Source: Sulfitobacter indolifex
Lineage (GTDB): Bacteria; Pseudomonadota; Alphaproteobacteria; Rhodobacterales; Rhodobacteraceae
Direction of reading: 5' to 3'
NCBI RefSeq assembly: GCF_022788655.1
Contig: NZ_CP084953.1
Span: 124,001 to 188,000 of the forward strand
DNA length: 64,000 bases
Shown here: positions 4,697-60,332 of the stretch, piece by piece
Position numbering within the stretch: the stretch's first letter is position 1
How the letters are laid out: the number at the start of each line of letters is the position of its first letter
Program-made: the position numbers and the translations under genes
The notes under the pieces: model-generated
Database searches by the model: none
What the model saw: the letters and a program-made list of their open reading frames with translations, nothing else
Told to the model about the DNA's origin: nothing

Positions 4697-4697
4697 G

Positions 4698-14429: not shown

Positions 14430-16244
14430 ATGGCAACTTCTACCCAAATCAATGCAATTACGGCCCTCTATGTAGGGTACTTTGATCGCGCTCCCGATCC
14501 AGCAGGTCTTCAGTTCTGGATTGAGCAAATCGACAATGGTCGTGAATTCAACACCATTGCAGCTGACTTCGCCGCGTCCCCCGAAGCCGTGGCACTCTAC
14601 CCCTACCTGAGCACGCCGGGCGTTTCTTCACCTGCTGCGTTCATTACAAACATTTACGCAAACCTGTTCGGCCGCACACCTGACGATGAAGGTCTGGAAT
14701 TCTGGACTGGCGTTCTGGAAAACGGTAGCGTTTCCGTGGCCGATATGATCGAAGCGATCATCATGGGCGCACGTGATGATGCAACCGCAGGTACATTCGA
14801 CAAATCCGTTCTCGACAACAAAGTCGAAGTCGGTTTGGATTTTGCTCTGAAAACGGGGAACGTCGCCGGCTTTGAATTTGATGCCGACGCGAGGGCTGCT
14901 GCTGTTGCTGTCGTCAACGGCGTCACAGAAGACCAAGCAACTGTAGACGCCGCAAAAGCCGCCACCGACGCATATATTGCTACCGGCACATTGCCAGGGG
15001 GTGCTGTAGGCGAAACCTTCACGCTTACTGCAGGCACTGACAATTTCGTTGGTACAGCCAACGCGGATACATTCCAGGCTGTAGAAAACGACGGTACGGC
15101 GGCCACCACATTGACAGCTTTCGACAAACTCGACGGGGGCGCTGGCAATGATACGCTGGAAATGATCGTTGACGGGACCCTTACCGTTCCTGGTGGCGTG
15201 TCGATCAAGAACATCGAAACCATCAATCTTGCACGCGATAGTGGTAGCGGCACTATTAATGCTGCCGTTTTTGTTGGCGCTTCGCAGATTTGGCAGATCG
15301 ACAATGCTGGTGATATCAGCGGCCTCATAGACGGTCAGGCTGCTGGCTTTCGCGATACTGCGGTAAACGATACCATTACCTACGATGATGACGTGACAAC
15401 TGCCACAGTTGCTCTCGACAACGTTGTCAGCGGTGGCACATTGGATATTGACGGTGACGACATCGAGACTGTGAATGTTGCGGGTTCGATCGACGCTGCT
15501 GCTGCCACCCTCACTGTAGATCTGGGGGCTGATGGCGCCGGCGCAGATGCTGTAACTGCTCTGAACCTTTCGCTGGAAAGCAACACCACCCTAACCGTCA
15601 CTGGTTCCAACGGGCTGGAACTGGAAACTGTCAATGGTTCCGGCTCCACTGGCGACTTGTCTATGAACTTCGCTGTCCCTTCAAACGTCGTATCGAGTAT
15701 CTCCACTGGGTCTGGTGATGACAGTGTGCTTAATGTCGGCCGCTTTTATAGTGACGCCGATGTCGTAACTATCGATTTGGGTGCTGGTAACGACACAGTA
15801 ACTATTGATGACGATAACGGCGGTGCGTCGATCAATACGCGCCTGGAGATTACCCTTGGTGCTGGCTCTGATATGATTGAAAGCGAGTACGGAAACAACA
15901 TCGGCGATGCCAGTGAGGCTGAGTTCCTAAACGGTCTCACGACTGTCTCAGACTTCAACGCTGACGACGACGTCCTTGATATAACGGCCTTCTCTTCGGG
16001 TCGCGAGACGTTGAGTAATGTGGAAATTGCAGCCATCGCCAGTGAGGCCAGCCTGTTCGATGCAGTTGTACTCGCGGCAAGCTACATGGACGGTGTTAAC
16101 ACTTTTACAACGTTCAACTACGGTGGGAATGCTTACGTCCTCCACGATTTTGATACCGACAGCACCTTTAGCGACGACGACGGCCTGATCGAACTGGTCG
16201 GCTTCTCCGTGAACGACTTCGACGCGAGCAACTTGATCACCTAA
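14430..16244 (+). CDS. DUF4214 / RTX-like surface protein, copy 3
   Basis: A 604-residue third paralogue with the conserved DUF4214 head (two YFDRAPDPAGLQFW / LFGRTPDDEGLEFW repeats), GGAGNDTLEM, a beta-rich centre, and a C-terminus (FADFN replaced by VSDFNADDDVLDI) ending NDFDASNLIT. It is more diverged than copies 1 and 2 are from each other, in the head and especially in the last 200 residues, so it is the older duplicate. There is no signal peptide; type I secretion by the nearby system is inferred. A longer frame from 14400 would add ten residues, but the sequence is leader-like in the sister copies. Confidence 0.83.
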   Translation: MATSTQINAITALYVGYFDRAPDPAGLQFWIEQIDNGREFNTIAADFAASPEAVALYPYLSTPGVSSPAAFITNIYANLFGRTPDDEGLEFWTGVLENGSVSVADMIEAIIMGARDDATAGTFDKSVLDNKVEVGLDFALKTGNVAGFEFDADARAAAVAVVNGVTEDQATVDAAKAATDAYIATGTLPGGAVGETFTLTAGTDNFVGTANADTFQAVENDGTAATTLTAFDKLDGGAGNDTLEMIVDGTLTVPGGVSIKNIETINLARDSGSGTINAAVFVGASQIWQIDNAGDISGLIDGQAAGFRDTAVNDTITYDDDVTTATVALDNVVSGGTLDIDGDDIETVNVAGSIDAAAATLTVDLGADGAGADAVTALNLSLESNTTLTVTGSNGLELETVNGSGSTGDLSMNFAVPSNVVSSISTGSGDDSVLNVGRFYSDADVVTIDLGAGNDTVTIDDDNGGASINTRLEITLGAGSDMIESEYGNNIGDASEAEFLNGLTTVSDFNADDDVLDITAFSSGRETLSNVEIAAIASEASLFDAVVLAASYMDGVNTFTTFNYGGNAYVLHDFDTDSTFSDDDGLIELVGFSVNDFDASNLIT

Positions 16245-16274
16245 TCACCTCGCAAGAGACTGATCAAAAATTAG

Positions 16275-24364: not shown

Positions 24365-25888
24365 TTAACGGCCAAACTCTGCGTCTGATGCCTCCAGCCG
24401 ATCTTTGGAAAAATGGGCGCTAAAGTGGAAACCGGTCTCATCCAGCCGGCGCTCAAAACGCCCTCCAAGACGCCCTTCAACCATTGTTTGAATAAGCCGG
24501 CTCCCAAATCCTCGCCGCTCCGGCTGCTCGGGAGGCGCTGCGAGCGGTTCCCGGCGATGCTCCCGCCAGTCTAGGCGGAGAGCATCAGGCGCATCTGCGT
24601 TGGACACTTGGATGTGCAAGCGATCGCCCTCTCCCAAGCCGCCATATTTTAAGGCGTTGGTGCCAAGCTCATGCAGGATCAAAGATAAAGGCATCACCGC
24701 CTCTCTGCAGATCACGATGGGGGTTGCGTCGATGGCGATATTGTTGTGATCCGGCAGCATGGTGAGAGAGTCCTTGATCAGGTCAGGGAGCAAAACACCA
24801 CGTTCAGCCTCTACGATCGACGTCTTATTCGCACGCCCTATGGCAATGATGCGACCCAAAAACATGTCATCCAGCTCCTGGATCGACTGCGCCTGACGAG
24901 AACATTGGCGGTAGATCGAGGATAAAACGGACAAGCTGTTGCTGACCCTATGCACCATTTCGGTGCGCAAAGTCTCACGGCTCTCAGCCCCTTGCTTGCG
25001 GCGTATGGCGGCACCCACTTGGCTGCCAACAGTTTTCACCAAACGCAGGATCTCCGGGTCCATTCTGGAGCTATCTGTGCCGAAAAACTCAAGCACCGCA
25101 TGAACATTGCCCCCATGTGGCACCGCAAGTGCCACACCGCGCGTTAACCCCACCTCAGTAAAAATCTCGCGGCGCAAGAATTTGCAGTCATCAATCAGGT
25201 TTTCGAGCGCCTCCAACCCGCCTGATTGCCAGGCCCGGCCCGGAAGCCCTTGCCCCGGTTTGAACTGGAGGCGGGAGGTGACCTCTACAACCGGCCGATA
25301 CCGTTCATCGCGCAGGCACCAAATCCCCGAAGGCTCCAAGATCTGAGCGCGGCCTTCGCCCCGTACAACATAGAGATGCCCCGCATCCATGCTGGCAATA
25401 TCGCATACCTCGTCGAGACAGAACTGGATGAAGTCATCAAGGGGCACATCTTCGATCAGCTTTTGGCCCATATTCATGACAGCCGTCGCTTCTCGCGCGC
25501 GCAGCTCTTGTTCGCGATGCGCCGCTTCCTCAATAGATCGATCGCGCACAAAGGCGTAAAAACTATGTTGCTGGTCGGAGTGGTTGATCGCGAAGATCGA
25601 CAACTCGACCGGAAACTCGACGCCTGTCCGGTGCAGGGCCGTAATTTTGATACGTCTCTCAAGAACGGGGCCTTCGCCTGTGCGGTTGTAATGCTCAAGA
25701 CCGCGCGCGTGGTGTTCACGATGTTGAGCCGGCACAATCAATTCACCTAAGACCGCGCACAAGGCCTCCTCCTTGGACCAACCAAAGAGTTCTTCGGCCG
25801 CGCCATTCCAAGCCGTTACGCGCCCCTCTGAGCTCATGCCTATGACTGCATCCAGCGCCCGGCTCAGCAGAAGCTCTAAATTCTCCAT
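24365..25888 (-). CDS. PAS-GAF-HWE sensor histidine kinase
   Basis: A 507-residue soluble kinase convergent with the previous signalling unit. Residues about 5-120 form a PAS domain (VIGMSSEGRVTAWNGAAEEL, YAFVRDRS), 140-300 a GAF domain (DAGHLYVV, GQGLPGRAW, GVALAVPHGG), then the HWE phospho-acceptor EMVHRVSNSLSV with His313 and the ATPase domain (LHELGTNALKYGGLG; RRGFGSRLIQTMVEG). The aspartate-glycine G1 box of usual HATPases is degenerate (LDWREHRRE), as is common in HWE kinases. It could share the neighbouring receivers as targets. The signal sensed is unknown. Confidence 0.9.
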   Translation of the reverse strand: MENLELLLSRALDAVIGMSSEGRVTAWNGAAEELFGWSKEEALCAVLGELIVPAQHREHHARGLEHYNRTGEGPVLERRIKITALHRTGVEFPVELSIFAINHSDQQHSFYAFVRDRSIEEAAHREQELRAREATAVMNMGQKLIEDVPLDDFIQFCLDEVCDIASMDAGHLYVVRGEGRAQILEPSGIWCLRDERYRPVVEVTSRLQFKPGQGLPGRAWQSGGLEALENLIDDCKFLRREIFTEVGLTRGVALAVPHGGNVHAVLEFFGTDSSRMDPEILRLVKTVGSQVGAAIRRKQGAESRETLRTEMVHRVSNSLSVLSSIYRQCSRQAQSIQELDDMFLGRIIAIGRANKTSIVEAERGVLLPDLIKDSLTMLPDHNNIAIDATPIVICREAVMPLSLILHELGTNALKYGGLGEGDRLHIQVSNADAPDALRLDWREHRREPLAAPPEQPERRGFGSRLIQTMVEGRLGGRFERRLDETGFHFSAHFSKDRLEASDAEFGR

Positions 25889-31538: not shown

Positions 31539-33530
31539 TTAGTCATCGCGAAGCGTCGCCAGTTGGCAACTCACTTTCCAAACCAACCCGGTCGGGGCGT
31601 AGGTGAGCTCGACATCTGCTGAGAGTGATGAGGCCGTCAGCTTGTCGATCACAGTCGTTCCAAACCCACGAGACGTTGGCGCTGATACAGCGGGACCATC
31701 CTGCTCGCACCAAGACATAGAAAAATTGCCGTCCTCAACCGACCAGTCGATGACGACGCGGCCCACATCGTTGCTCAGACTTCCATATTTGGCAGCATTT
31801 GTGGCCAATTCATGCATTGCCATGCCGATCGCCTGCGCTGCGTGCGCGCTAACTTTTACCGGGGGACCCACTACCGTCACCCGCTCCCTGATTGCTTCAA
31901 AATGCTCAAGCTGGCCCCGCACCAATGCGTCCAACTCAATCTGCTGCCACCCGTTGTTCACCAGGATATCTTGGTTGGCCGCAAGAGCCTGTAGCCGCTC
32001 GCCAAATGCCTCGATGAAGTTCTCTGGGGATCGCAGGGCTGTTTGTCGCGCGATCACCTTGACGACAGACAGCAAGTTTTTGCCGCGATGGTTCACCTCA
32101 CGCATCAGCATTTGGCGGTTTTCGTCCAATTCTTTCCGATCGGTAATGTCTTGGATGATTTTGATGAGGTAGGAGATCCGCCCCTTAGCGTCGCGCACGC
32201 AGCTCACCGTGGTGTGGCCCCATACCAAACTTCCATCTTTGCAAAGATAGCGCTTTTCCAAATCGTACTCATCGGCTGCGCCGGATTTAAGCGCCTCAAG
32301 TGCGGTCCTTCCTCGAGGGATATCCTCAGGATGCGTGAAGTCATCAAGCAGGCGGCCCTCCACCTCCTCTGCGCTGTAGCCAAGCATTTCTGCCAAGCGG
32401 TCATTGACGCGCATCAATGCGCCTTCCCCACTCACAATGCTGATGCCGACACCCGCGTTCTTGAACGTGGCCTCAAAGCGCTTCTGAGACATCTCAATGT
32501 CTTTTGTTCGCTCTTTGACCCGCGATTCCAGTTCCGCGTTGATTTGAGCCAAGTCCAACAACGCCTGCTTTTGCTGGCGCACAATTGCAGCGACAATCAA
32601 TCCAATGGAAGCCGCGGTCAGGATCAGGAACTGCATCCTGTTGTGCATAAGTGCGATGCTCAAAGCAGGGCTATCGGAGGCACCGAGAATATGCCCATGC
32701 GCACCGATCACGAATGTTAATCCCACCACCGCGAGAGCCGCCCCGCGAAACTCAAATCGCAATGCGGCCCAGAGAACCGGCAGCGGCAACAAGTATGTAT
32801 AATAAGACCCTGTTGCCAAATCCCACGCGGTGACGCCCACCAGCAAACCTGCAATAACAAAGCCTTCAAGCAGCGCGCGCCCTTGGAGCCTCATGCCATC
32901 ACGCCAGGCATTTACAACTGTGATTGTCATTGGGGTGGCAATCAAAGTGCCTGTGGCATCCCCCAACCACCAAAGCGGCCAGGTGTCTGCAAAGGAGCTT
33001 TTGCCTTCTGATGCAACAAAGGCACTGCCAATGGTTGCGCTGATCATAGGGCTTAACAGCACGCCGATGACCAGCAGCCCCAGAACCTGGGACAGCGTGG
33101 TCAACCGCCGGATGGGGGCGTCAAAAAGCGGGGCGAGAATGTAGCCCGCCGCAAATATCGCAGCCGCGTTAGCGACCATATACCCAAGGGCGGCGGTGAC
33201 GGTGCTGTTGTACCACAGGAAGTTTCCAGTGATCTCTCCGAAGATCCCAAGCGCAATCCACCACGGCCAAGTTTCTCTGCGGTGGATCAGCAACGCCGCG
33301 AGGATCACGCCATTGGGCGGCCAAACAGTAACGGGGGCGCCCGGCACAATCGCCATCCACCGACCAAAAGCAGCTGCCAACAAGTAAATCGCATAAAAGC
33401 CCAGCACAGATGGAATACTGGGAAAGTGCGCGCCCCTTCTGGCAGCCTTATCGGGGCTCTGCGCAAAGCCAGCATCCAAGTTCGCCAAGGCCCCTGACGA
33501 CAGCGTTCGGGCAAAGAAAGTCCCCTTCAC
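31539..33530 (-). CDS. MASE1-PAS-HWE sensor histidine kinase
   Basis: A 663-residue membrane kinase. About residues 40-320 form a polytopic MASE1 sensor domain (VTVWPPNGVILAALL, WLGDATGTLIATP, PLPVLWAALRFEFRGAA). A short coiled segment (330-350) and a PAS domain with PAC (350-465; AGVGISIVSGEGALMRVNDRLA, LVWGHTTVSCVRD) follow. Then come the HWE acceptor REVNHRGKNLLSVV with His481 and the ATPase (GMAMHELATNAAKYGSLS; RGFGTTVID). It starts with GTG at 33530 preceded by GAGGGGAAG. The stimulus is unknown; receivers at 21.6 and 23.8 kb are the closest candidate partners. Confidence 0.92.
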   Translation of the reverse strand: MKGTFFARTLSSGALANLDAGFAQSPDKAARRGAHFPSIPSVLGFYAIYLLAAAFGRWMAIVPGAPVTVWPPNGVILAALLIHRRETWPWWIALGIFGEITGNFLWYNSTVTAALGYMVANAAAIFAAGYILAPLFDAPIRRLTTLSQVLGLLVIGVLLSPMISATIGSAFVASEGKSSFADTWPLWWLGDATGTLIATPMTITVVNAWRDGMRLQGRALLEGFVIAGLLVGVTAWDLATGSYYTYLLPLPVLWAALRFEFRGAALAVVGLTFVIGAHGHILGASDSPALSIALMHNRMQFLILTAASIGLIVAAIVRQQKQALLDLAQINAELESRVKERTKDIEMSQKRFEATFKNAGVGISIVSGEGALMRVNDRLAEMLGYSAEEVEGRLLDDFTHPEDIPRGRTALEALKSGAADEYDLEKRYLCKDGSLVWGHTTVSCVRDAKGRISYLIKIIQDITDRKELDENRQMLMREVNHRGKNLLSVVKVIARQTALRSPENFIEAFGERLQALAANQDILVNNGWQQIELDALVRGQLEHFEAIRERVTVVGPPVKVSAHAAQAIGMAMHELATNAAKYGSLSNDVGRVVIDWSVEDGNFSMSWCEQDGPAVSAPTSRGFGTTVIDKLTASSLSADVELTYAPTGLVWKVSCQLATLRDD

Positions 33531-45360: not shown

Positions 45361-46137
45361 CTATCCTTGCTGGGCAATACCCTTGATAACAGCTGCAACT
45401 TCTAATGGCGTCTCGATACAGGGCAAATGCCCGGCGCCTGAGATTTCAACGACGCTGGCTTTTGGTATGGATTGTGCAAATTGCGCAACGATGTGCGAAG
45501 GCGTGGCCAAATCCTCTGTGCCAGATATGCAGATCACCGGTGCGTCGATTTGTGACGTTTGATCGCGCAGATCCGTATCGCGGATCGCGCGGCATGCCGT
45601 CGCGTAGCCCTCAGCAGGGGTGCGCGCGAGCATTGATCGATATCCTTGCAGATCGCTTGGCCGGTCGAACCTGAACGCAGCCGAGAACCAGCGCTCAAGT
45701 ATACCATCTGCCAAGGCCTCAAGACCGACCTCATCGAGTTGGTCAAGACGCGCTTGCCAACTCGCTGCATCCCCGATCCGCGCAGCAGTGTTGGACAACA
45801 CCATTGAAGAGACAAGATCAGAGCGGGCGTGGAAAAGCTGTTGTGCGATCATTCCCCCAATTGAGACACCGCATATGAGGGCCGGACCAAGACAGTAGTG
45901 GTCCATCAATGCGGCTACATCTGCGGCATAGGTCTTCATGTCTGCGTCACCCGTCTCGGAGAGACCGTGCCCACGCTTATCAATCTGCAACACCGTCCAG
46001 TCGTCCGGCAACAAACTTGCAACGTCATCCCATATGCGCAAATCCGTCCCAAGTGAGTTCAAGAAAACGACGCTTGTCTTGCCGCTCAAGCGGACCTTAT
46101 GGTGAAGGACAGTGCCGTTCATTTCTAAAAACGTCAT
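45361..46137 (-). CDS. Alpha/beta hydrolase, 3-oxoadipate enol-lactonase-like
   Basis: A 258-residue alpha/beta-hydrolase close in style to PcaD: VVFLNSLGTDLRIWDDVASLL, DKRGHGLSE, nucleophile elbow CGVSIGG (Ser92), ISGTEDLATP (Asp209) and GAGHLPCIE (His237). PcaD hydrolyses 3-oxoadipate enol-lactone to 3-oxoadipate. GGGAGAA precedes the ATG at 46137, one base after the stop of the BKACE gene; the frame running to 46251 would overlap that gene. It is the third gene of a reverse-strand operon after the cyclase-family and BKACE genes. Actual lactone substrate not proven. Confidence 0.85.
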   Translation of the reverse strand: MTFLEMNGTVLHHKVRLSGKTSVVFLNSLGTDLRIWDDVASLLPDDWTVLQIDKRGHGLSETGDADMKTYAADVAALMDHYCLGPALICGVSIGGMIAQQLFHARSDLVSSMVLSNTAARIGDAASWQARLDQLDEVGLEALADGILERWFSAAFRFDRPSDLQGYRSMLARTPAEGYATACRAIRDTDLRDQTSQIDAPVICISGTEDLATPSHIVAQFAQSIPKASVVEISGAGHLPCIETPLEVAAVIKGIAQQG

Positions 46138-46138
46138 G

Positions 46139-46972
46139 CTATTCTCCCAATCCAAGGATACGGCGCGCTTCGGTAGGGGAGGCAATCCTGCGCCCGTTTT
46201 CTTGGCAAATCTCGACGGCGCGTTCAACGAGAGCTGCATTGGATGGTGCAAGGGTGTGGCGATCCATGCGAATATTGTCTTCGAGGCCCGTGCGCAAATG
46301 CCCCCCTGCCTGCGCTGCCCAACGGTTCAATTCCGCCTGATGCTTTCCAATACCGGCCGCACACCATGGCACGTCGCCAAAAAGACGCTTCACTGTCGTG
46401 ATATAGTAATTGAACACGTCGCGGTCCGCCGGCATCGCATTTGTGACCCCCATTACAAACTGAATATAAGGCGGTCCGGTGATCTCCCCTTTATCCACCA
46501 TAGATTTGGCCTGCAGGATATGGCTGAGATCGAAGGCTTCAACTTCAGGCTTGATCGCCCGCGACTTCATCTCCTGGGCAAGCCAAGAAACAAGATCGGG
46601 TGGATTCTCATAGACGCGGTTCGGAAAGTTGTTCGATCCGACCGATAGAGAAGCCATGTCAGGACAAAGCGAAAGCATACCCCCTCGAGCGCGCCCAGCC
46701 CCCGATCTGCCACCGGTTGAGAACTGAATGAGCATGCCGGGACAATGTTTCTCAATCCCTTCCTTCAGGCGGGCAAATCGCTCGGGGTCCGCCGACGGCG
46801 TCTCATCGTCGTTGCGCACATGCGCGTGGCATACGGATGCACCGGCTTCGAACGCGGCCTGTGTGCTCTCGATCTGTTCGGGCACAGTTATAGGAACGGC
46901 AGGATTGTCGCTCTTTTTCGGCAAAGAGCCGGTAATTGCGACGCAGATCATCGCTGGCGGCATGGTAGACAT
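46139..46972 (-). CDS. BKACE family beta-keto acid cleavage enzyme (DUF849)
   Basis: A 277-residue TIM-barrel enzyme of the family that condenses a beta-keto acid with acetyl-CoA to give acetoacetate and an acyl-CoA. It shows ICVAITGSLPKK, the zinc-binding CHAHVRN (His49, His51), IQFSTGGRSGAG, GSNNFPNRVYENPPDLV, KPEVEAFDL, IQFVMGV and GLEDNIRM. The founding member uses 3-keto-5-aminohexanoate from lysine fermentation, but the family has many substrates. Beside an enol-lactonase-like and a muconolactone-isomerase-like gene, 3-oxoadipate is the natural candidate here (inference). Nine bases separate it from the upstream cyclase gene. Confidence 0.9.
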   Translation of the reverse strand: MSTMPPAMICVAITGSLPKKSDNPAVPITVPEQIESTQAAFEAGASVCHAHVRNDDETPSADPERFARLKEGIEKHCPGMLIQFSTGGRSGAGRARGGMLSLCPDMASLSVGSNNFPNRVYENPPDLVSWLAQEMKSRAIKPEVEAFDLSHILQAKSMVDKGEITGPPYIQFVMGVTNAMPADRDVFNYYITTVKRLFGDVPWCAAGIGKHQAELNRWAAQAGGHLRTGLEDNIRMDRHTLAPSNAALVERAVEICQENGRRIASPTEARRILGLGE

Positions 46973-46981
46973 GGCGGTACC

Positions 46982-47989
46982 TCAAATTGTAGCGATGGGA
47001 GTGACCGGAGACCCTAGAGCACCAGGCAATCTGAGCGGCGGCGCGGTCAGGAGAAAATCACATCGGCCAAGCGCATCAAGAGCCTTCGCCAGATCAGCCA
47101 GATACCAAAGCTCAGCAAGAGGAAGACCGAGCTTGAAGAGGCAATGATGATGCAACGGCAGTTTAAGCGTTGCGCCCAATGGCGGGTCGGGGTTCTCGAC
47201 CGCATAATTATCAGCGCATATGGCTGCGATGCCGCTGTCGGTAATCCATTGGAGAAGTGCTAAATCATGACCATCCAGAACGGCACCGGTGCGATCTAGC
47301 GCTTCGACATCCGGCGCACCATTCATTTCGACGATCCGCTCTGCAAACCCCGTTCTGAGCATCATGAAATCGCCAGGCCTTATGTCTGCACCCGTTGCGT
47401 CAAGCGCATGCATCAGATCATCGCGATCAATAACGCGCCTGTTTGTGCCAAAGACCTTAGCAAGATCCACGAGAACCGCACGACCCTGCATACCATGGGT
47501 GGCCATGGTTTCGACGCCGAGACGTTCTGCACGCGACGATCCACCCGTTTTGGCCGGGGCCAGGACGTCCCGATCAGCCCTATGCCCATTGTAATAGACC
47601 TTTTCGGGCACACCGTTGTCATCCACATCAAACATCGCGCCCACATGCGCAAGCGAGTCCCACTGTGTCGAATATTGGGTGTAGAGAATAACCCGATCAT
47701 CGCTAATCACATCGCGCAATGCCGGGTCGAGATTGGCCAGTGGAAAGTTCACATACTGCGCGCCGTCCAGTTCCGTTGGGCTAAGCCGAGGGGGATGACG
47801 GCGCGGGTTCAATAGGTTGCCACCCGGCAAATCAAGGGGCAGCGATAAGCAAAGGGTCCGCCCTTCGGTGACAGTTGCCAAGCCAGCACGCACTTGCTCG
47901 GGTCCAATAAGATTCAGCCGGCCCAGTTCGTCATCAGCACCGAAATCCCCCCAGTTTGACCCCTCGGGCCGTTTCGTCCAGTTCATCAT
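46982..47989 (-). CDS. Cyclase-family metal-dependent hydrolase
   Basis: A 335-residue enzyme of the cyclase / kynurenine-formamidase-like family. TQYSTQWDSLAHVGAMFD contains the family metal-binding Asp and His; KTGGSSRAERLGVETMATHGMQGRAVLVDL, TGADIRPGDFMMLRTGF and AAICADNYAVE follow. Members hydrolyse amides, esters or lactones. It is first in the reverse-strand operon, so it may open or close a lactone or ester before the later enzymes; its substrate is unknown. GGAGAGAT precedes the tandem ATGs at 47989 and 47986. Confidence 0.85.
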   Translation of the reverse strand: MMNWTKRPEGSNWGDFGADDELGRLNLIGPEQVRAGLATVTEGRTLCLSLPLDLPGGNLLNPRRHPPRLSPTELDGAQYVNFPLANLDPALRDVISDDRVILYTQYSTQWDSLAHVGAMFDVDDNGVPEKVYYNGHRADRDVLAPAKTGGSSRAERLGVETMATHGMQGRAVLVDLAKVFGTNRRVIDRDDLMHALDATGADIRPGDFMMLRTGFAERIVEMNGAPDVEALDRTGAVLDGHDLALLQWITDSGIAAICADNYAVENPDPPLGATLKLPLHHHCLFKLGLPLAELWYLADLAKALDALGRCDFLLTAPPLRLPGALGSPVTPIATI

Positions 47990-48045
47990 ATCTCTCCATC
48001 ATTCCCTGTATTGCGCCCGCACCGACCAAGCACAAAAGGGGTGTC

Positions 48046-48068
48046 CTATCCAATTGCGCTACGCCCCT
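48046..48068 (-). other. tRNA-like 5' fragment
   Basis: Read on the reverse strand, the sequence AGGGGCGTAGCGCAATTGG and the next GATAG match the acceptor strand, A-site and D-arm of a tRNA. The anticodon, variable and T arms do not follow. It is a partial tRNA copy in the divergent promoter region, perhaps left by recombination at a tRNA gene. Confidence 0.5.
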
Positions 48069-48261
48069 CCCGAACCGACAATAACCTGCCTCAAATGCGT
48101 CTGCGCTGCTGGTCTACATTCTCAAACGCTTTGAACGCCGATCAAGGCGCAGGATGTTAGTCACTCATGCGCTAATGAACCGACGTGCAGCGGCAGACCC
48201 ACGACGCCACGTCCCACGAAGAAGCCAAATATGCACCACCCCACTATCAATTACCGTTTGA

Positions 48262-48284
48262 TTATCACACAGGCCGAGTGATAA
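48262..48284. promoter_or_regulatory. Candidate LysR-type operator, divergent promoter
   Basis: TTATCAC (48262-48268) is exactly inverted as GTGATAA (48278-48284) around nine bases, 36 bases before the transporter ATG and 273 bases upstream of the cyclase gene. The 12-mer ATTATCACACAG recurs upstream of the lysR gene (51375-51386), so both sites are likely bound by that regulator. Confidence 0.6.
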
Positions 48285-48319
48285 GCAAACATTACATATT
48301 GTATCAAGGGAGGATTGAT

Positions 48320-49648
48320 ATGAACGCATTGGCCAATTTTTTCACGCGGCTGATAGGGCGCTACCTGCCCGACCCGCTGGTCATCGCCTTTGGGCTGACA
48401 TTCTTAACTATTGGCCTCGCGATGGTGGTAGAGGGGGCCGGCTTCATTCAGACGGCAACCTATTGGGGCGAAAGCTTCTGGAACCTTCTCGCCTTTTCGA
48501 TGCAAATGACCGTTATCCTGCTTGCTGGATACCTTCTGGCCAAATCACCGCCTGTGAACGCGGCTTTGGTATTTTTTGTCTCTAAAGTGGAAAAGCCCGC
48601 GACCGCGGTAATCGTTGCGACATTGGTCGGCGCGATTGGAAGCTGGCTCAACTGGGGTTTTGGCCTCGTAATTGGCACCTTGGTCGCGCGCGAACTTGGC
48701 CAACGCGTCAAAGGCCTCCACTATCCGTTGGTTATTGCCGCCGCCTATTCGGGGTTTGCACTCTATGGCATTGGCCTGTCCGGTTCCGTGCCACTGCTCA
48801 TTGCAACCGAAGGGCATTTTTTGCAGGCAGACATCGGAATTGTCCCGATCAGCGAGACCATTCTTTCGCCGGTCCTTCTTATAACCAGCCTCGTCATCGT
48901 CCTGACTCTGCCCCTCTTCAACGCTTGGCTGCACCCCAAGGATCCGTCCAAGGTCATTGAAGCCAAACCCGAGGCACCCTCACCAGCTGCCGCAGCCGCA
49001 GGCGACGCCGTGCGCTCTATCGCAGACCGCATGAACAATAGTCCACTTCCCGGTATTGCGATTGGCCTTCTCGGCCTCGTCTACGCCGCAAATCATTTTG
49101 TCACGGGCGGCTCGCTTAACCTCAACATCATTAACACTATTTTTCTCTTTCTCGGGATTTTGCTCTTTGCCTCCCCAGCCAGATACCTTGCGGCACTGGG
49201 TGACGGTGTAACAATCGTGGCGGGGATTATCATTCAATACCCTTTCTATGCGGGCATCTTAGGCATCCTCACAGGCTCTGGCCTGCTGGTGACGTTCGCT
49301 CAGATGTTCGTTAACATCTCCACACCTGAAACCTTGCCAATCTGGTCGTTCCTATCAGGCGGCCTAATCAATCTATTGGCGCCATCGGGAGGCGGGCAAT
49401 GGGCTGTTCAGGGTCCGGTCATGATGGGTGCGGCTAAAGAAATCGGTGCCTCCATTCCGGCCACTGCGCTTGCAGTACAAATCGGAGATCAGTGGACCAA
49501 TATGATCCAACCTTTCTGGATTCTGCCTGTCTTGGCAATCTCCGGCCTCCAGTTGCGCGATGTAATGGGATATATGGTTTTGATCCTCATTTATCTTGGC
49601 CTCATCTTCGGCGCGGCCGTCATGCTGTGGGGCTTTTTGGGACTATAA
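48320..49648 (+). CDS. AtoE-type short-chain fatty acid transporter
   Basis: A 442-residue polytopic membrane protein of the TIGR00366/AtoE family: RYLPDPLVIAFGLTFLTIG, GSWLNWGFGLVIGTLVAREL, YSGFALYGIGLSGSVPL, LINLLAPSGGGQWAVQGPVM and IQIGDQWTNMIQPFWILP-like segments. Family members take up short-chain fatty acids such as acetoacetate or butyrate. GGGAGGA lies seven bases before the ATG at 48320. It heads the forward operon with YciI-like and muconolactone-isomerase-like genes and is probably the uptake route for the substrate of this locus (inference). Confidence 0.9.
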   Translation: MNALANFFTRLIGRYLPDPLVIAFGLTFLTIGLAMVVEGAGFIQTATYWGESFWNLLAFSMQMTVILLAGYLLAKSPPVNAALVFFVSKVEKPATAVIVATLVGAIGSWLNWGFGLVIGTLVARELGQRVKGLHYPLVIAAAYSGFALYGIGLSGSVPLLIATEGHFLQADIGIVPISETILSPVLLITSLVIVLTLPLFNAWLHPKDPSKVIEAKPEAPSPAAAAAGDAVRSIADRMNNSPLPGIAIGLLGLVYAANHFVTGGSLNLNIINTIFLFLGILLFASPARYLAALGDGVTIVAGIIIQYPFYAGILGILTGSGLLVTFAQMFVNISTPETLPIWSFLSGGLINLLAPSGGGQWAVQGPVMMGAAKEIGASIPATALAVQIGDQWTNMIQPFWILPVLAISGLQLRDVMGYMVLILIYLGLIFGAAVMLWGFLGL

Positions 49649-49664
49649 ACAAAAGGAGTTGGTC

Positions 49665-49961
49665 ATGCCTTTCATGATCGAAACATGGGATAAGGATGGC
49701 AACCACGCGCTTCGCCTTAAGCTGCGGGACCGCCACCTCGACTACCTAGATCAGCATCAAACGCTTCTTTTGGCATGTGGGGCGAAGCTCTCGGACGATG
49801 GTGCTTTCGCGTCCGGGGGGATCTATCTGGTCGATGTCGAGGATAGGGCCTCGGCCGAAGACTTCATCCAAAATGACCCTTTCCACGAAGCGGGTCTGTT
49901 CCAGCGGGTCGAGGTGATCCGCTGGCGCAAGGCATATCTGGCCGGAAAACGGGAGTTATAA
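49665..49961 (+). CDS. YciI-like protein
   Basis: A 98-residue ferredoxin-like-fold protein: RDRHLDYLDQHQTLLLACGAKL carries the conserved His24, and GGIYLVDVEDRASAEDFIQN with DPFHEAGLF the conserved Asp. The family is related to muconolactone isomerases, and one member (TftG) removes chloride from a chlorinated hydroxyquinol. AAGGAG is nine bases before the ATG. It lies between the transporter and the isomerase-like gene, so it probably acts on an intermediate of the same pathway. Confidence 0.88.
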   Translation: MPFMIETWDKDGNHALRLKLRDRHLDYLDQHQTLLLACGAKLSDDGAFASGGIYLVDVEDRASAEDFIQNDPFHEAGLFQRVEVIRWRKAYLAGKREL

Positions 49962-49966
49962 GAACT

Positions 49967-50257
49967 ATGCTTTTTCAGGTGAATATGACCGTAAAGCTGC
50001 CGGCAGATATGCCGACGAGCGAAGTTGAAGAGATTAAGATGCGGGAAAAAGCCTACTCCCAAAAGCTGCAGGAAAGCGGCGAATGGCGCCATATCTGGCG
50101 TGTAACCGGCACCTATGCAAACCTGTCGATATTCGACGTCAGCAATGCTGATAGATTACATGAGATTATCTCGGGTCTTCCGCTTTTTCCCTATATGGAC
50201 ATCGACGTGAAATCCCTGGTCCGCCATCCCTCCTCGGTACGCGCCGACGACAGCTGA
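49967..50257 (+). CDS. Muconolactone delta-isomerase-like protein
   Basis: A 96-residue protein (MLFQVNMTVKLPADMPTSEV, WRHIWRVTGTYANLSIFDVS, LPLFPYMDIDVKSLVRHPS) matching the muconolactone isomerase family, small decameric proteins that shift the double bond of muconolactone to give 3-oxoadipate enol-lactone. It begins five bases after the YciI-like gene. With the enol-lactonase-like and BKACE genes of the divergent operon it would form consecutive steps. Confidence 0.87.
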   Translation: MLFQVNMTVKLPADMPTSEVEEIKMREKAYSQKLQESGEWRHIWRVTGTYANLSIFDVSNADRLHEIISGLPLFPYMDIDVKSLVRHPSSVRADDS

Positions 50258-50436
50258 ACGCCGCAGAACCCTCACCGCCGGTTCACACATCACTGGCCTT
50301 GGCATCAACAATATCTGGGCGTCGAAGACCAGTTGCACATCAAGCCAAAAGGGCAAAAAGTCCGCGCACCGCACCGCGCGAAAACCTGGAACTTGATGCC
50401 CCAAGTGGCAGCATGCACAGTCTTCTTATCGGCCTC

Positions 50437-51348
50437 TCACAGCCGGTCAATCGGCTCTAGGATCGCAAGCAAACGGCGCAGGGTAGGATTGGTTGGGGCA
50501 TCAAGATGGGCAAGGCCGATCCGGCTCGTTACGGTGGCATCAGAGATCCGCACAAAGCTGACCCCTACCTCCGCCATACGAGCAACAGAAGCGGGCACAA
50601 ATGCCACGCCCAGACCGGCAGAGACAAAACTGACGATCGCAGTGAACTGTCGGGCACGATGGGCAATGTGGGGGGTAAAACCAGCGTCGCTGCACAGCGC
50701 ATAAGCGCAGGCGGCAAATCCGAGATCAGGGCCGAGATGGGTAAAAATAAAGCTTTCTTTGCACAGATCGGCCATGCGCACGGATTCCGCCCCCTCCAGT
50801 CTATGTCCTCTGGGAAGAGCCAACATGATATCTTCTTCTAAAATGTCCCTCGTCACCAGCACATCTGGCACCCCCGAGAGCGGCAAGCGCACAAATCCGG
50901 CATCGATCCTGCCTGCGACGATCTCGCGGATTTGAAGATCCATGTCCAATTCATGCAAAACCAGATCGACATCCGTGCCCGCCCGAAATGTCTTCAAAAC
51001 ACGTCCAAGAACGCCAGCATAAGACGCGGATCCAATGTAAGCCAACTCGATACGACCGCGCCGCCCACCGCGCGCGGCGTCAGCAATATTTTCGACGCGG
51101 TGAGCCTGCCTCAGCAGGGCGCGCACCTCTGGCAAAACAGTTTCGCCAAATTCGGTCAACAGTACACGACGGCGGTTTCGGTCAAACAATAGCTCGCCCC
51201 CGAACTCGGCTTCGAGCTGTTTGATCTGTTGCGTCAGCGCTGGTTGAGCGACACCTAGAAGTTGAGCCGCTCGCCCAAAATGCAAAGTTTCGGCGACGAC
51301 GTCGAAAGCTTCATACTGGCGCAAGGTCGCCGTCAAACTTCTATTCAT
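50437..51348 (-). CDS. LysR-family transcriptional regulator
   Basis: A 303-residue regulator. The N-terminal winged HTH (LRQYEAFDVVAETLHFGRAA, LLGVAQPALTQQIKQLEAEFG) and the effector-binding domain (RIELAYIGSASYAGVLGRVL, GRIDAGFVRLP, SAGLGVAFVPASV) follow the CatR/CbnR-like layout of regulators of aromatic catabolism, which typically bind muconate-type inducers. It is convergent with the forward operon. A palindrome-like site upstream of its own start shares a 12-mer with the divergent promoter of the locus, indicating auto- and cross-regulation. Confidence 0.93.
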   Translation of the reverse strand: MNRSLTATLRQYEAFDVVAETLHFGRAAQLLGVAQPALTQQIKQLEAEFGGELLFDRNRRRVLLTEFGETVLPEVRALLRQAHRVENIADAARGGRRGRIELAYIGSASYAGVLGRVLKTFRAGTDVDLVLHELDMDLQIREIVAGRIDAGFVRLPLSGVPDVLVTRDILEEDIMLALPRGHRLEGAESVRMADLCKESFIFTHLGPDLGFAACAYALCSDAGFTPHIAHRARQFTAIVSFVSAGLGVAFVPASVARMAEVGVSFVRISDATVTSRIGLAHLDAPTNPTLRRLLAILEPIDRL

Positions 51349-53280: not shown

Positions 53281-54711
53281 TCAGCCATTCTTGTGGTTCA
53301 ACACGGTCTCCACGTCATGTGCCACATCATCCCAAGTGCGCAGCGCGCTTGTGCTGATCTTCTGCTCCAGAACGCGCCGGTGCTCAGGGTCTGCGATGAG
53401 CCTGTGGCAGGCTTCATAGATGCTGCTGATGGACTGGGCATCGCAATATTCCACCAAATCCCCACCGACCTCAGGCATGGAAGAATTATCCGCCACCACC
53501 GCGGTCTTGCCAAAGGACAGGCTTTCACCAATCGGCAGGCCCCAGCCTTCGTAAAAGCTGACGGTCGCTGTAAAAAGGCAGTTCTCATAAAGAAACCCAA
53601 GCTCAGTATCGCTGGGACGTTTGGCAAATTGCACCCAGCCACCCAGGTTGCCGGTGGCCGTCATCAACTCTTCAAAGTCGTCGTTATACCAGCCCGGCTT
53701 GCCCGCAAAAACAAGCTTGGGCACATCAAGCCCCGGGGTTTGAATAAGACGCTGCCAAGCTTGCGCGAGACGCCAAAGATTTTTGCGCGATTCCATCGTG
53801 CCCACGACCAAGACAAAGGGGGTCTTGGTTAGGTTCAGCACAGATTGCTGCAACCCCTGCAAACTGCTGAGACGCGATTTGAACGGCTTTGCCGGGTCCC
53901 TTACCCGGTTGGAATGTACCACGTTGAACTTTTGTGCCAAGGGCACCACGTCAATGGGGCGCTGCTGCCCGACTTCATCCATAAAGCGCTGCAGGTCGCG
54001 GGCCGTGTTTTGCGAATTCGCAATGAAGCGGTCGCAATACCCCAAAGATGCCAGCAACCAATGGTAAAACTCGCCCGAGAAATCCGCCGCAATATGCTCA
54101 GTCGCAATGATCGGGATCAGATCATGTACCAGTTGGTAGATCTCAAGGCTCTTGTCGTCCTTCAAGCGCTGCAGGGCGGGCTCCAGCCCATCGATGTTCC
54201 AAATTGCGCCTAGAATGATCAGTTGATCGCCTGGCTTCGCGGTCTGGCTCACGTCCTCTCGAGAGAGCTCTTCCGCCCCCTGTGTTTGGAGCGGCGCGCG
54301 GCGCGTTTTGAAGGTCTCCCATTCTTCAATGCTCGAGCCCATCTTGGCAAAATAGCGTTCATGTCCGCGCGCCGCGTGATACGCACGTACCTTATGGTAA
54401 AACCAGTACTTTAGGGGCCTGTTGCGATAGCGCACTAAGGTGGGCGCAGCATTATGCTGAGAGCGCGCCTTCTTGCCGAAGAAAACCCGCCCCAAATCAT
54501 CGGGAGAAAACTCTTCCATCTCCCTAATAAAGCTGGAATCGATGGCGACATAGGCGCGCCGCGCCCGGTCCCAATAGCTCAGCCGCACATTGTCGGCCCC
54601 CAAGCGGGCGACCATGCGGCGGATGACCTCAAAAGAAACCCTTTGAATGCCCGACACCGTGGTCTCTTTCTCCACGTAGATCAGAATGTCGGTCATATCG
54701 AAATAGTACAT
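53281..54711 (-). CDS. Glycosyltransferase family 4
   Basis: A 476-residue GT-B enzyme. The N-terminal half has YVEKETTVSGIQRVSFEVIR and YQLVHDLIPIIATEH, with SLGYCDRFIANSQNTARDL. The donor half has PFVLVVGTMESRKNLWRLAQ, KLVFAGKPGWYNDDF and SFYEGWGLPIGESLSFGKT with the E-x7-E pattern. This resembles mannosyl- or rhamnosyltransferases of O-antigen type. GGAAGAG lies upstream of the ATG at 54711. It is divergent from a second family 4 enzyme at 54834 with similar design; both may act on the same glycan. Confidence 0.9.
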   Translation of the reverse strand: MYYFDMTDILIYVEKETTVSGIQRVSFEVIRRMVARLGADNVRLSYWDRARRAYVAIDSSFIREMEEFSPDDLGRVFFGKKARSQHNAAPTLVRYRNRPLKYWFYHKVRAYHAARGHERYFAKMGSSIEEWETFKTRRAPLQTQGAEELSREDVSQTAKPGDQLIILGAIWNIDGLEPALQRLKDDKSLEIYQLVHDLIPIIATEHIAADFSGEFYHWLLASLGYCDRFIANSQNTARDLQRFMDEVGQQRPIDVVPLAQKFNVVHSNRVRDPAKPFKSRLSSLQGLQQSVLNLTKTPFVLVVGTMESRKNLWRLAQAWQRLIQTPGLDVPKLVFAGKPGWYNDDFEELMTATGNLGGWVQFAKRPSDTELGFLYENCLFTATVSFYEGWGLPIGESLSFGKTAVVADNSSMPEVGGDLVEYCDAQSISSIYEACHRLIADPEHRRVLEQKISTSALRTWDDVAHDVETVLNHKNG

Positions 54712-54833
54712 GTCGGGTTCTCTTCCTTGACTCTGGTGCTTAACGCCCAAGAAAGGTAGAGCACCGCCTTAGTGACGCTCAGTGAAGAACAAGTTAAAGT
54801 TCCTCAACCCCAAGGACGATGTTAAGAGGACTT

Positions 54834-56114
54834 ATGAGCCCAATATACTATGACCTTTCAGAACAATTTCTCTCTTCTGGCGTCAAGTTTAAATATTACG
54901 GCATTGCGAGAACCGTGATGGAGGTGGGGTATGAGCTCGCCCGCTCCTCGGCTGACGTACGTTTTGTGGTCTTCTCGCCGGCACATGATCGCTTCTTTGA
55001 GGTCGATCCAAATATCGGTGCGGCCTCTGAGACAGGCGTCTGCGATCCTAATATCCCGGCCGCCGCAAAGCCCATGCGCATTCGCTATAGTTTTCCCGAG
55101 CCTCATCCGCTGCGCGATGCAATCTACCCGCTTGTACGCACAGTCATGAAACGTATCTGCCTCAGCAAATGGCGCCGCGCGGTCCCCGAAGGCAGTCTGC
55201 GCGAAGTGGATCTCTCAGGCCAAATCCTCGTGTCCCTCGGGCGGCCTAAAATGATGGCAGATTACCTCGTCGCGTTGGACAAGCAGAACATCCGCCCGCG
55301 GTTCTATCCACTGATCCACGATATGATCCCGCTGCATGAGTTTGCGCACCCGCGTCAAAGCATGTTTGCGCGTAATTTCGCCCATGACAATCGGATCGTC
55401 ATCAGTCACGCCGAGAAGGTGATGACAAATTCCCGTTTCACGAAGGCAGAAATCGAAGAATTTTCTGCCTCTGGCCATCTGCCCGACCTCCCTCCCGTTG
55501 TGCCCGTCCCCCTGCCCCATGAGCTGCGCGAAACAAACGAGACGGTCGATATCGACATCCCCGACACCCCCTATTTTCTGGGGGTCGGGGTGATGACGGG
55601 ACGCAAGAATCTTGAGTGCATTCTACAAGCGATGCTTCATCTGCACAAAACAGGCCGCCCTGTGCCGCTGTTTGTCTTGGCCGGCGCCCATAGAAAGAGA
55701 ACTGTCGCATATCTCGACAGGCCAGAGGTGGCACCGATCAAAGATAAAGTGCGCCTCCTTTTGAACCCGAACCAAGCGAGCTTGCGCCTTCTCTATCAAA
55801 AAGCCCGCGCGTTGATTATCCCAAGCCATATGGAAGGCTTCGGTTTGCCCTTGGGTGAAGCCCTATGGCTGGGAACCCCCGGCCTTTCCGCCACGACTCC
55901 GGCGTTGTGTGAAGTGGGGGGAGATTTGGCAGAATACTTCGATCCAAACGATCCCACGGCGCTCGCAGCCCTTATCGACAAAATGCATACTGATCCCGCG
56001 GCATATGCCGCTGCAAAAGACAAAATTCTGCGCAACCATTCCTCACTCCGGACCTGGAACAACGTTGCGACAGATATCATCGCCACGGTATCCGCCGACT
56101 CCGCAAAAGTCTGA
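54834..56114 (+). CDS. Glycosyltransferase family 4
   Basis: A 426-residue GT-B enzyme: YYDLSEQFLSSGVKFKYYGI and FYPLIHDMIPLHEFAHPRQS in the acceptor half, and YFLGVGVMTGRKNLECILQA, SHMEGFGLPLGEALWLGTPG and CEVGGDLAEYFDPNDP in the donor half. It is similar in plan to the divergent gene at 53281. GAGGA lies five bases before the ATG. It ends eight bases before the ABC transporter start, so the transporter may export its glycan or lipid-linked product, though this is inference. Confidence 0.9.
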   Translation: MSPIYYDLSEQFLSSGVKFKYYGIARTVMEVGYELARSSADVRFVVFSPAHDRFFEVDPNIGAASETGVCDPNIPAAAKPMRIRYSFPEPHPLRDAIYPLVRTVMKRICLSKWRRAVPEGSLREVDLSGQILVSLGRPKMMADYLVALDKQNIRPRFYPLIHDMIPLHEFAHPRQSMFARNFAHDNRIVISHAEKVMTNSRFTKAEIEEFSASGHLPDLPPVVPVPLPHELRETNETVDIDIPDTPYFLGVGVMTGRKNLECILQAMLHLHKTGRPVPLFVLAGAHRKRTVAYLDRPEVAPIKDKVRLLLNPNQASLRLLYQKARALIIPSHMEGFGLPLGEALWLGTPGLSATTPALCEVGGDLAEYFDPNDPTALAALIDKMHTDPAAYAAAKDKILRNHSSLRTWNNVATDIIATVSADSAKV

Positions 56115-59006: not shown

Positions 59007-60332
59007 ATGGCGCGCATTCCCCGCACCGGTCGCAGCAGACGCCAAAGTAAAACTGCTGTATGGTACGAGAGATCCAAAGTCGGAACCCTGACACGGGGAG
59101 CGGATGGCGCAATCGGCTTCACCTATGATGTCGACTGGCTGGAATCCGACACGGCCTTTCCTGTTGCCAGCGTACTGCCGCTGTCTAAGACGAAATGGCA
59201 TGGCAATCCGGTGGTTGCCGCCTTCGACAACCTTTTGCCCGATGCAGAAGGAGACCTGCGGGAGAAGATCGCCGCACGCGTCGGCGCTGCCGGACAGGAT
59301 GTATACTCACTACTGTCGGTATTAGGGCGCGATTGTGTAGGGGCGCTTCAGTTTCTACCGATGGGGGAGGACCCATCAGAACAAGACATGTTGTATCGCA
59401 TCATCTCGGAAGAGGAGATTGTAGCTGACCTAAAGAACCTCGCAGCAGCGCCACTCGCACAGGGCGACGACGATGATTTTCGGATTTCCATCGCCGGTGC
59501 GCAAGAAAAGACAGCCTACCTTCAAGTGGATAGTCAGTGGGCCAAGCCGCGCGGCATCACACCAACAAGCCATATTTTCAAAACGCCTATGGGGGTTCTC
59601 CCCGGTCCGGACCAAATCGACCTAAGCGACAGTGTCGAGAATGAATTGTTTTGTATGACCCTCGCACGTGAAATCGGGTTGCCTGCCGCGCATGTCGAGA
59701 AGATCACCCTTCCCGACCAGATGGTTCTGTCGGTTGAGCGCTTTGATCGGGATTGGCGAGGGGACAAACTGATGCGCCTGCCTCAGGAGGATATCTGCCA
59801 GTCATTGGGGTATCCCTCCGCGAGGAAATACCAGAAAGCCGGTGGCCCTGGTATCGGGCAAATAATGGAGCTGCTGCGGGAATCCGATACGCCCATCGAG
59901 GATCGAGAGACATTCTTTCGAGCGCAAATTTTCTTTTACTTGATTGGTGCCTCGGATGGGCATGCCAAAAACTTCAGCCTTCATCTGGGACGTCAGGGAC
60001 GTTTTAGGCTGGCGCCTCTCTATGATATCTTAAGCATCGCCCCGATCGTGCGCGCAGGGCGATTGCAACGGAAACGCTATCGGCTCGCCATGTCGATCGA
60101 CGGCCACTACGGTATCGACGAGATAGTACCTCGCCACTATGAAGCCGAAGCGCGCGCTGCCGGACTGCCCAAAGGCCGCGCCCTAGAGCTATTGTATGAT
60201 ATGGCAGAGCGGCTTGACGCCGCGTTGGATCGGACCCGGCTCAAGCTTGGAAAACTGGCCCCAGACACCGTCAGTGATCCGATCGAAAGTGAGGCCATGG
60301 AGCGAGCCACGCAAGTCAGGCAGCTGCTTTAA
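59007..60332 (+). CDS. hipA: HipA-family serine/threonine kinase toxin
   Basis: A 441-residue toxin of the HipA family, whose founding member phosphorylates glutamyl-tRNA synthetase and causes persistence. Present are DNLLPDAEGDLREKIAAR, ISIAGAQEKTAY (phosphate loop, about 160-171), ERFDR (244-248), GASDGHAKNFSL with the catalytic Asp317 and Asn322, and APLYDILS. No inactivating change is visible. It is directly downstream of hipB. The organism may use it for growth control or as a plasmid-like stability locus. Confidence 0.94.
   Translation: MARIPRTGRSRRQSKTAVWYERSKVGTLTRGADGAIGFTYDVDWLESDTAFPVASVLPLSKTKWHGNPVVAAFDNLLPDAEGDLREKIAARVGAAGQDVYSLLSVLGRDCVGALQFLPMGEDPSEQDMLYRIISEEEIVADLKNLAAAPLAQGDDDDFRISIAGAQEKTAYLQVDSQWAKPRGITPTSHIFKTPMGVLPGPDQIDLSDSVENELFCMTLAREIGLPAAHVEKITLPDQMVLSVERFDRDWRGDKLMRLPQEDICQSLGYPSARKYQKAGGPGIGQIMELLRESDTPIEDRETFFRAQIFFYLIGASDGHAKNFSLHLGRQGRFRLAPLYDILSIAPIVRAGRLQRKRYRLAMSIDGHYGIDEIVPRHYEAEARAAGLPKGRALELLYDMAERLDAALDRTRLKLGKLAPDTVSDPIESEAMERATQVRQLL

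Follow-up and report, generated by a model that had tools for sequence, protein, structure and literature searches.

What does a bacterium degrade with the third and fourth enzymes of the catechol branch of the β-ketoadipate pathway if the known first and second cannot be found in its genome? This question is raised by a locus at 45361 to 51348 of the window, by which we mean the whole 64,000-nucleotide stretch of Sulfitobacter indolifex DNA analysed here (positions 124,001 to 188,000 of contig NZ_CP084953.1). The locus contains genes for a muconolactone delta-isomerase (CatC; MIase), a 3-oxoadipate enol-lactonase (PcaD) and a β-keto acid cleavage enzyme (BKACE), together with a cyclase-family hydrolase, a YciI-family protein, an AtoE-type permease and a LysR-type regulator, and an initial annotation had read it as a possible β-ketoadipate pathway terminated by BKACE. 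We consider it probable that the locus is part of a module for a C6 muconolactone-type lactone acid that would be taken up from outside the cell and not made from an aromatic ring, that it would form one regulon with a second half on another contig (C4), and that BKACE would cleave 3-oxoadipate. Judged from sequence, the unusual part would thus be the entrance to the pathway and not its BKACE ending. The features of the locus are as follows.

45361 to 46137, minus strand: PcaD-type 3-oxoadipate enol-lactonase, an alpha/beta hydrolase of 258 amino acids (TIGR02427 283.7 bits against a cut-off of 255.85, run on the 255-amino-acid frame from 46128)
46139 to 46972, minus strand: BKACE, 3-oxoadipate type by profile, 277 amino acids (PF05853 308 bits; NF053568 472.7 against a cut-off of 350)
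46982 to 47989, minus strand: cyclase-family (PF04199) hydrolase, 335 amino acids (PF04199 52 bits; variant motif QYSTQWDSLAH)
48256 to 48290, no strand assigned: candidate operator GTTTGATTATCAC-N9-GTGATAAGCAAAC, between the divergent operons and ending 29 bp before the transporter start
48320 to 49648, plus strand: AtoE/TIGR00366-type short-chain fatty acid transporter, 442 amino acids (PF02667 400.6 bits)
49665 to 49961, plus strand: YciI-family protein, 98 amino acids (PF03795 72.6 bits; NF009503 144.3, just under the cut-off of 145)
49967 to 50257, plus strand: muconolactone delta-isomerase, 96 amino acids (PF02426 131.2 bits; TIGR03221 144.9 against a cut-off of 130.6)
50437 to 51348, minus strand: LysR-type regulator, 303 amino acids (PF03466/PF00126)

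When the open reading frame (ORF) boundaries were re-derived from the sequence, all seven genes were present with intact frames, and the three minus-strand genes (cyclase, BKACE, PcaD) were tightly packed with gaps of 9 bp and 1 bp, PcaD starting 1 bp past the BKACE stop. Pfam and NCBIfam agree with the names given initially, including that of the LysR gene, which lies beyond the segment then described. PcaD, BKACE and MIase all exceed curated NCBIfam equivalog cut-offs, and the initially proposed chain from MIase through PcaD to BKACE is plausible. In PcaD, Ser92, Asp209 and His237 could be placed in the expected motifs. The only MIase found in the genome is the window copy with its duplicate on contig C3; it is 64–66% identical to CatC of three cat operons, and its best structure match is muconolactone isomerase 1mli (E 2.4e-33), followed by 5-chloromuconolactone dehalogenases (E 1.2e-29 to 1.7e-28). 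The transporter starts at the ATG at 48320, which is preceded by GGGAGG, and scores under the TIGR00366 cut-off (396.7 against 575.75; this run and that with PF02667 used a longer frame from 48185). The cyclase-family hydrolase matched no NCBIfam model and a single PDB entry, the uncharacterised protein 5ibz (E 5.2e-42). All 30 aligned close relatives, window included, share the Q, S, Q, W, D and H residues of its motif Q-Y-S-T-Q-W-D-S-L-A-H, and the Q-x-S-T-Q segment stands where we take the usual PF04199 motif to be histidine-rich (H-x-G-T-H). An AlphaFold model of this protein, made with 30 close relatives, had a mean pLDDT of 63.4 and was judged too weak to use.

The genome (G000; 4.5 Mb in 8 contigs, given as 100% complete with 4.75 contamination) contained no match to the intradiol dioxygenase family PF00775, and the same search was positive in 4 of 14 control genomes. 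Muconate cycloisomerase (CatB) was not found either, the best of 5 MR_MLE proteins in the genome scoring 151.6 against the TIGR02534 cut-off of 334.95. Of the catechol branch, the cell thus appears to hold the third and fourth steps but not the known first two, which speaks against an aromatic β-ketoadipate pathway of the usual kind. A location of cat genes elsewhere in the genome was rejected because the PF00775 search was negative and the MR_MLE scores were far under the cut-off. Of the original aromatic reading, the lower-pathway enzymes therefore stand, and the ring-opening part does not; the recurrence of the gene set in other genomes and the half of the system on C4 had been overlooked.

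To establish this recurrence, genome contigs were scanned with the window cyclase, and the best 80 of 365 loci were kept and scored by tblastn; matches to short-chain dehydrogenases/reductases (SDR) below 40% identity, to 3-hydroxyacyl-CoA-dehydrogenase-like enzymes (3HCDH-like; HADH) below 38% and to LysR below 40% were dropped, and some loci end near the cyclase. MIase, YciI and cyclase occurred together in 63 of the 80 loci, in Halomonadaceae, Bordetella/Achromobacter, Cupriavidus and Rhodobacterales. Among these 63 module loci, 61 also contained AtoE, 52 PcaD, 51 HADH and 50 SDR; a CoA-transferase pair was present in 36, a pcaI/pcaJ/pcaF/PcaDC set like that of the Halomonadaceae locus L022 in 8 and a pcaB-like gene in 4. 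None contained catA or catB, and one contained an intradiol dioxygenase gene. Nearly the same set was seen on annotated plasmids of Haematobacter (HADH not seen), Roseomonas (PcaD not seen) and Qingshengfaniella. The neighbours of the module in L022 include two PF01144 CoA-transferase genes, a thiolase above the PcaF cut-off and a PcaD-CMD fusion, and in Bordetella genomosp. 2 (L031) both CoA-transferase subunits exceed their cut-offs (pcaI/scoA and pcaJ/scoB), as does a regulator of the PcaR/PcaU family. Such pcaI/scoA-, pcaF- and PcaR-type neighbours in other taxa point to 3-oxoadipate as the module product. In the open-licence literature searched, no publication describing the module was recognised, and it is in this sense only that we call it unnamed.

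The relation between the module and ring cleavage was assessed in 48 genome entries (44 of the 80 loci plus 4 family genomes; G046 and G308 are the same, which leaves 47 distinct). PF00775 was found in 36 of the 48 and not in the other 12, completeness not being given for genomes reached via loci. All 12 negative genomes have the module: in 11 it is in the given locus (L023, L025, L026, L029, L031, L034, L035, L063, L065, L081 and L086, of which L065 is from a metagenome-assembled genome), and in the twelfth, that of L060, it is on another contig (L087). Five of them (L023, L025, L026, L029 and L034), all Halomonadaceae, have the PcaF set next to the module. Hence, the module is mostly found together with ring cleavage, without being dependent on it. 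These counts bear on the explanation that the window locus is a remnant or lower arm of the catechol branch, with catA and catB missing from the assembly or recently lost and the remaining genes bystanders. MIase and PcaD do pass the classical models, MIase is as close to CatC as noted above, a plasmid of Paracoccus contaminans carries a ben-cat-pcaD-BKACE cluster, and an intradiol dioxygenase is present somewhere in three-quarters of the entries searched. We nevertheless regard this explanation as unlikely: the genome is given as complete and yet neither PF00775 nor CatB was found in it, the frames are intact, and a module seen in 63 loci with catA or catB beside none, and in 12 further genomes without PF00775, is not the decay of one lineage.

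We next asked what the BKACE of the window would cleave. Its residues H49, H51, R227, E231 and D232 align with identical residues of 2y7d, and we take two His, a Glu, an Asp and an Arg to be the metal-binding and catalytic set of the Kce fold. The Glu that presumably binds the amino group in Kce is Leu17 here. The enzyme falls far short of the dioxohexanoate-class model NF053538 (166.7 against 430), and by profile and residues it is predicted to be of the 3-oxoadipate type, as initially proposed. In a 21-row tree it was sister to the BKACEs of C4 and of Sulfitobacter SDR-HADH loci (95/95) and apart from the pca and cat BKACEs sampled; the possibility of a relocated pca-cluster BKACE was rejected on this placement with the SDR-HADH type. 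In one setting the substrate may be another: in Alloyangia and Salipiger (L157 and L160), a BKACE 74% identical to that of the window has an aldehyde dehydrogenase and a BCCT transporter as neighbours.

The BKACE ending itself, initially thought to be uncommon, is not new and has already been proposed in print. NCBIfam has a model for 3-oxoadipate:acetyl-CoA acetyltransferase (NF053568). For the catechol branch in Ralstonia eutropha H16, an excerpt of PMC6449761 proposes β-ketoadipate cleavage by a COG3246 protein that is co-regulated with catBCD, and an excerpt of PMC8963497, citing Bastard et al. 2014, proposes a BKACE ending in the protocatechuate branch for Methylobacterium pca clusters without pcaIJF. 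In annotated records, pca clusters with BKACE occur on plasmids of Palleronia, Phaeobacter and Paracoccus versutus, and the Paracoccus contaminans BKACE lies within its ben-cat-pcaD cluster. Further genomes in which BKACE lies close to intradiol, pca or cat genes are G094, G135, G239 (~2.5 kb off) and G303 (Vreelandella sedimenti, the genome of L030), and the 14 kb read in G307 showed no such neighbour; in all, the clusters read cover several Rhodobacterales and one halomonad. On plasmids of Sulfitobacter CB2047 (L156) and Phaeobacter P88 (L158), BKACE is directly followed by a 3-oxoacid CoA-transferase pair within ring-cleavage clusters, with no thiolase within the ~11 kb shown; this order would fit acetoacetate recycling with succinyl-CoA and makes the two plasmids a neat test case for BKACE plus such recycling. 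A BKACE above the 3-oxoadipate cut-off was present in 7 of 32 genomes, our own included (31 were reached through cyclase loci, and the match in G304 contains one stop), and the remaining genomes must therefore end the pathway otherwise.

The window locus lacks an SDR gene and a 3HCDH-like gene, both usual in module loci elsewhere. Contig C4 of the same genome, however, carries a second BKACE (BKACE2; NF053568 478.9 against 350), a 3HCDH-like dehydrogenase, an SDR and a LysR that is 72% identical to the window LysR. The C4 SDR shares 91% identity with its counterpart in Sulfitobacter sp. D7; this SDR type is 60–62% identical to module-locus SDRs (the Sulfitobacter copy being compared). The C4 stretch shows 82–87% DNA identity to Sulfitobacter plasmids, four of which have the order LysR-SDR-HADH-BKACE. 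The best structure match of the C4 dehydrogenase, which is 43–48% identical to three module dehydrogenases, is the non-CoA enzyme 4om8, and ~22 early residues are missing relative to 6aa8, which would fit a free 3-hydroxy acid, that is, a non-CoA substrate.

The nearest functional parallel to this inventory is a phloroglucinol cluster of Clostridium scatologenes. According to an excerpt of PMC10470551, this cluster encodes a BKACE, a reductase, a cyclohydrolase of the 'cyclase' family and a relative of 3-hydroxyacyl-CoA dehydrogenases that acts on a free 3-hydroxy acid; it shares with our genome the SDR, cyclase-family hydrolase, 3HCDH-like, BKACE and CoA-transferase kinds. The window system differs in the specificity class of its BKACE, the added MIase, PcaD and YciI, the distribution over two contigs and the transporter. 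By analogy, the SDR could reduce a cyclic or phenolic compound, the cyclase hydrolyse a C-C bond, the 3HCDH-like enzyme oxidise the free 3-hydroxy acid and BKACE cleave the β-keto acid, with MIase, YciI and PcaD acting on a lactone side product. The required kinds are all in the genome (the window supplies cyclase and BKACE, and C4 the SDR, the 3HCDH-like enzyme and a BKACE), and the shortened C4 dehydrogenase would suit such a route. Still, BKACE passes the 3-oxoadipate model and not that for the dioxohexanoate class, the neighbours in other taxa point to 3-oxoadipate, the importer is of the short-chain-acid type, and the cyclase has Q-x-S-T-Q in place of the usual H-x-G-T-H; a phloroglucinol-like route thus seems improbable.

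A link between the window and C4 is provided by a shared palindrome. The counterpart of the candidate operator on C4, GTTTACTTATCAC-N9-GTGATAAGTAAAC, sits between HADH and SDR. Searching the genome for the 14-base core with at most one mismatch returned three sites, namely the window, C4 and the C3 duplicate of the window, and a reversed control returned none. With 22 fixed bases and at most 2 mismatches, the palindrome was found in 1 of 394 sampled family genomes, which was this one; at 0–1 mismatch it occurs in all four Sulfitobacter SDR-HADH-BKACE loci, and a scan of eight further loci, of which seven were BKACE contexts and one a cyclase locus, did not find it. The LysR regulators would be expected to bind it. 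The best reading is that both halves belong to one split regulon on two contigs, with sister LysR regulators and one palindromic candidate operator.

On this basis a pathway can be outlined, of which each reaction and the substrate are what we infer from the observed profile identities, recurrence, neighbours in other taxa, dioxygenase and CatB negatives and shared palindrome. The AtoE-type permease would import a mono-anionic lactone, which with its single free carboxylate is similar to a short-chain fatty acid and would suit such a carrier. MIase, possibly with YciI, would shift the double bond to give the 3-oxoadipate enol-lactone, which PcaD would open to 3-oxoadipate. The cyclase-family hydrolase may open a more saturated form, for example 3-hydroxyadipate lactone, to a free 3-hydroxy acid, and the 3HCDH-like enzyme of C4 and/or the SDR, possibly one per enantiomer, could oxidise this to 3-oxoadipate, where the unsaturated route (MIase, PcaD) and the saturated route (cyclase, SDR/HADH) would meet. 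BKACE, present in two copies and one per half, would then convert 3-oxoadipate and acetyl-CoA to succinyl-CoA and acetoacetate, and the 3-oxoacid CoA-transferase pair of the genome could use that succinyl-CoA to activate acetoacetate. The initial suggestion that the isomerase and lactonase may instead act on a related lactone is in line with this proposal.

The lactone could also be a substituted one. In a methyl- or chloromuconolactone pathway, YciI would remove HCl or aid a methyl-lactone shift, the cyclase would act as a trans-dienelactone hydrolase, an enzyme that we take to be a PF04199 relative, and the end product would be a substituted 3-oxoadipate. MIase does match 5-chloromuconolactone dehalogenase structures, a YciI-superfamily dehydrochlorinase is known (from a title cited in PMC10304115), and LysR-controlled 4-methylmuconolactone operons exist (PMC6449761, in excerpt). 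Yet MIase matches 1mli better than the dehalogenases, BKACE passes the model for 3-oxoadipate, and the spread over Halomonadaceae, Rhodobacterales, Bordetella/Achromobacter and Cupriavidus would suggest a natural substrate, so that we regard a substituted lactone as very unlikely.

Several observations weigh against uptake of a ready-made C6 lactone by a two-part module ending in BKACE. At the level of the locus, the initial statement that PcaIJ and PcaF are absent holds; at the level of the genome it does not, as a search revealed one PF01144 pair on contig C1 that belongs to the pcaI/scoA–pcaJ/scoB subfamily and two thiolases above the PcaF cut-off (703.1 and 671.1 against 597), one in a phenylacetate (paa) cluster and the other with an IS21 element and a FadB-like gene as neighbours. 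The classical ending could thus run in trans, and BKACE may not be needed. Identities of the window MIase to three other module MIases (56–65%) are no higher than those to the three CatC proteins (64–66%), so nothing in MIase points to a new lactone. With 43–48% identity, the C4 dehydrogenase may not be the equivalent of the module dehydrogenases, and as the Sulfitobacter stretches have SDR-HADH-BKACE without the lactone genes, that half may have a substrate of its own. When 19 module loci from other genomes and a cat locus were searched for TTATCAC-N9-GTGATAA with at most 2 mismatches, a single 2-mismatch site (L104) was obtained, which suggests that the operator is lineage-specific. BKACE was found in none of the 63 module loci within the stretch read, and the BKACE form rests on this genome; the 80 loci are rich in Achromobacter and Bordetella, so that the counts are not independent events, and 36 of the 48 entries searched do have an intradiol dioxygenase. 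In L022, both PF01144 genes and the pcaB-like gene score under the pcaI/pcaJ and pcaB cut-offs, and these three are accordingly named by family and position. Lastly, C2 (126209–190208) and C3 (124001–188000), contigs of 313,826 and 307,297 bp whose other parts differ, both carry the whole window (1–64000) at 100% identity. This may reflect an assembly artefact or a large and very recent duplication from one replicon to another; either leaves the gene content argument intact except for completeness, and calls for caution with claims of absence.

The arrangement of BKACE with the module was seen in this genome only, among the loci read. In a sample of 295 family genomes, the cyclase search at E≤1e-70 returned 11, our own included; the module was present in 4 of the 10 others, none of them with BKACE beside it (stretches were read for 9 of the 10, and G094 was taken as the plasmid locus L104 from the match position). 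Six nearer relatives of the cyclase (72–81%) come from metagenomic sources whose genomic context could not be read.

Compared with known systems, the window locus shares PcaD, a 3-oxoadipate-type BKACE and the same proposed end products with the BKACE-ended β-ketoadipate pathway (NF053568 and the excerpts of PMC6449761 and PMC8963497). Those clusters start at catechol or protocatechuate with intradiol dioxygenases, whereas none was found in our genome, and the window locus has a permease, a cyclase-family hydrolase and YciI in front. The MIase and enol-lactonase pass the same family models as those of the catC-catD lower catechol branch; the differences are that no catA or catB was found in the genome, that the partner genes are others and that the LysR comes with a palindrome otherwise unseen in the genome. 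The 4-methylmuconolactone (mml) operon, in the excerpt of PMC6449761, is likewise controlled by a LysR and encodes a lower pathway entered at a lactone; it differs in using MmlI/MmlJ together with a CoA-transferase and a thiolase.

More generally, and at slightly less than even chances, the locus may represent a widespread unnamed module (AtoE-type permease, YciI, MIase, cyclase-family lactonase, PcaD, SDR and a free-3-hydroxyacid dehydrogenase) for ready-made C6 lactone acids such as muconolactone and both enantiomers of 3-hydroxyadipate lactone. Its entry would lie below ring cleavage and its endings would be lineage-specific: a PcaIJ/ScoAB-type CoA-transferase, a CoA-transferase with PcaF, or, here, BKACE in a split regulon with a duplicated LysR and the palindrome. 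If this is true, MIase and enol-lactonase genes alone are no marker of aromatic degradation, and ring-cleavage products or other environmental C6 lactones could sustain bacteria that lack the usual ring-opening enzymes. It would also give a function to YciI, cyclase-family and AtoE-type genes now annotated by family alone, explain the gene set that recurs in Halomonadaceae, Bordetella/Achromobacter, Cupriavidus and Rhodobacterales, and provide a clear example of a single pathway held together as a regulon over two contigs, probably two replicons.

Elsewhere in the window, a tRNA scan of all 64 kb found none, and an Rfam scan of 44–52 kb gave two weak matches, both under the gathering score. 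At 8400–16250 lie three neighbouring related ORFs of 614–639 amino acids. They contain DUF4214 domains, one of them also matches RTX weakly, and their DNA contains pieces 79–96% identical; an ABC transporter and a HlyD-type gene at 415–3635 are next to them, and together these genes are probably a type I secretion locus with repeated secreted proteins. Glycosyltransferase genes at 4644–7076 (above the Pfam cut-off) and 7073–8398 (weakly), and a pair at 53281–56114 recognised from the listed translation, suggest that the catabolic genes are surrounded by surface polysaccharide loci. HWE histidine kinases with PAS domains are encoded at two places, 24365–25888 and 31539–33530, one also with GAF and the other with MASE1, and a HipA-like protein with HipA_C and Couple_hipA domains is encoded at 59007–60332.

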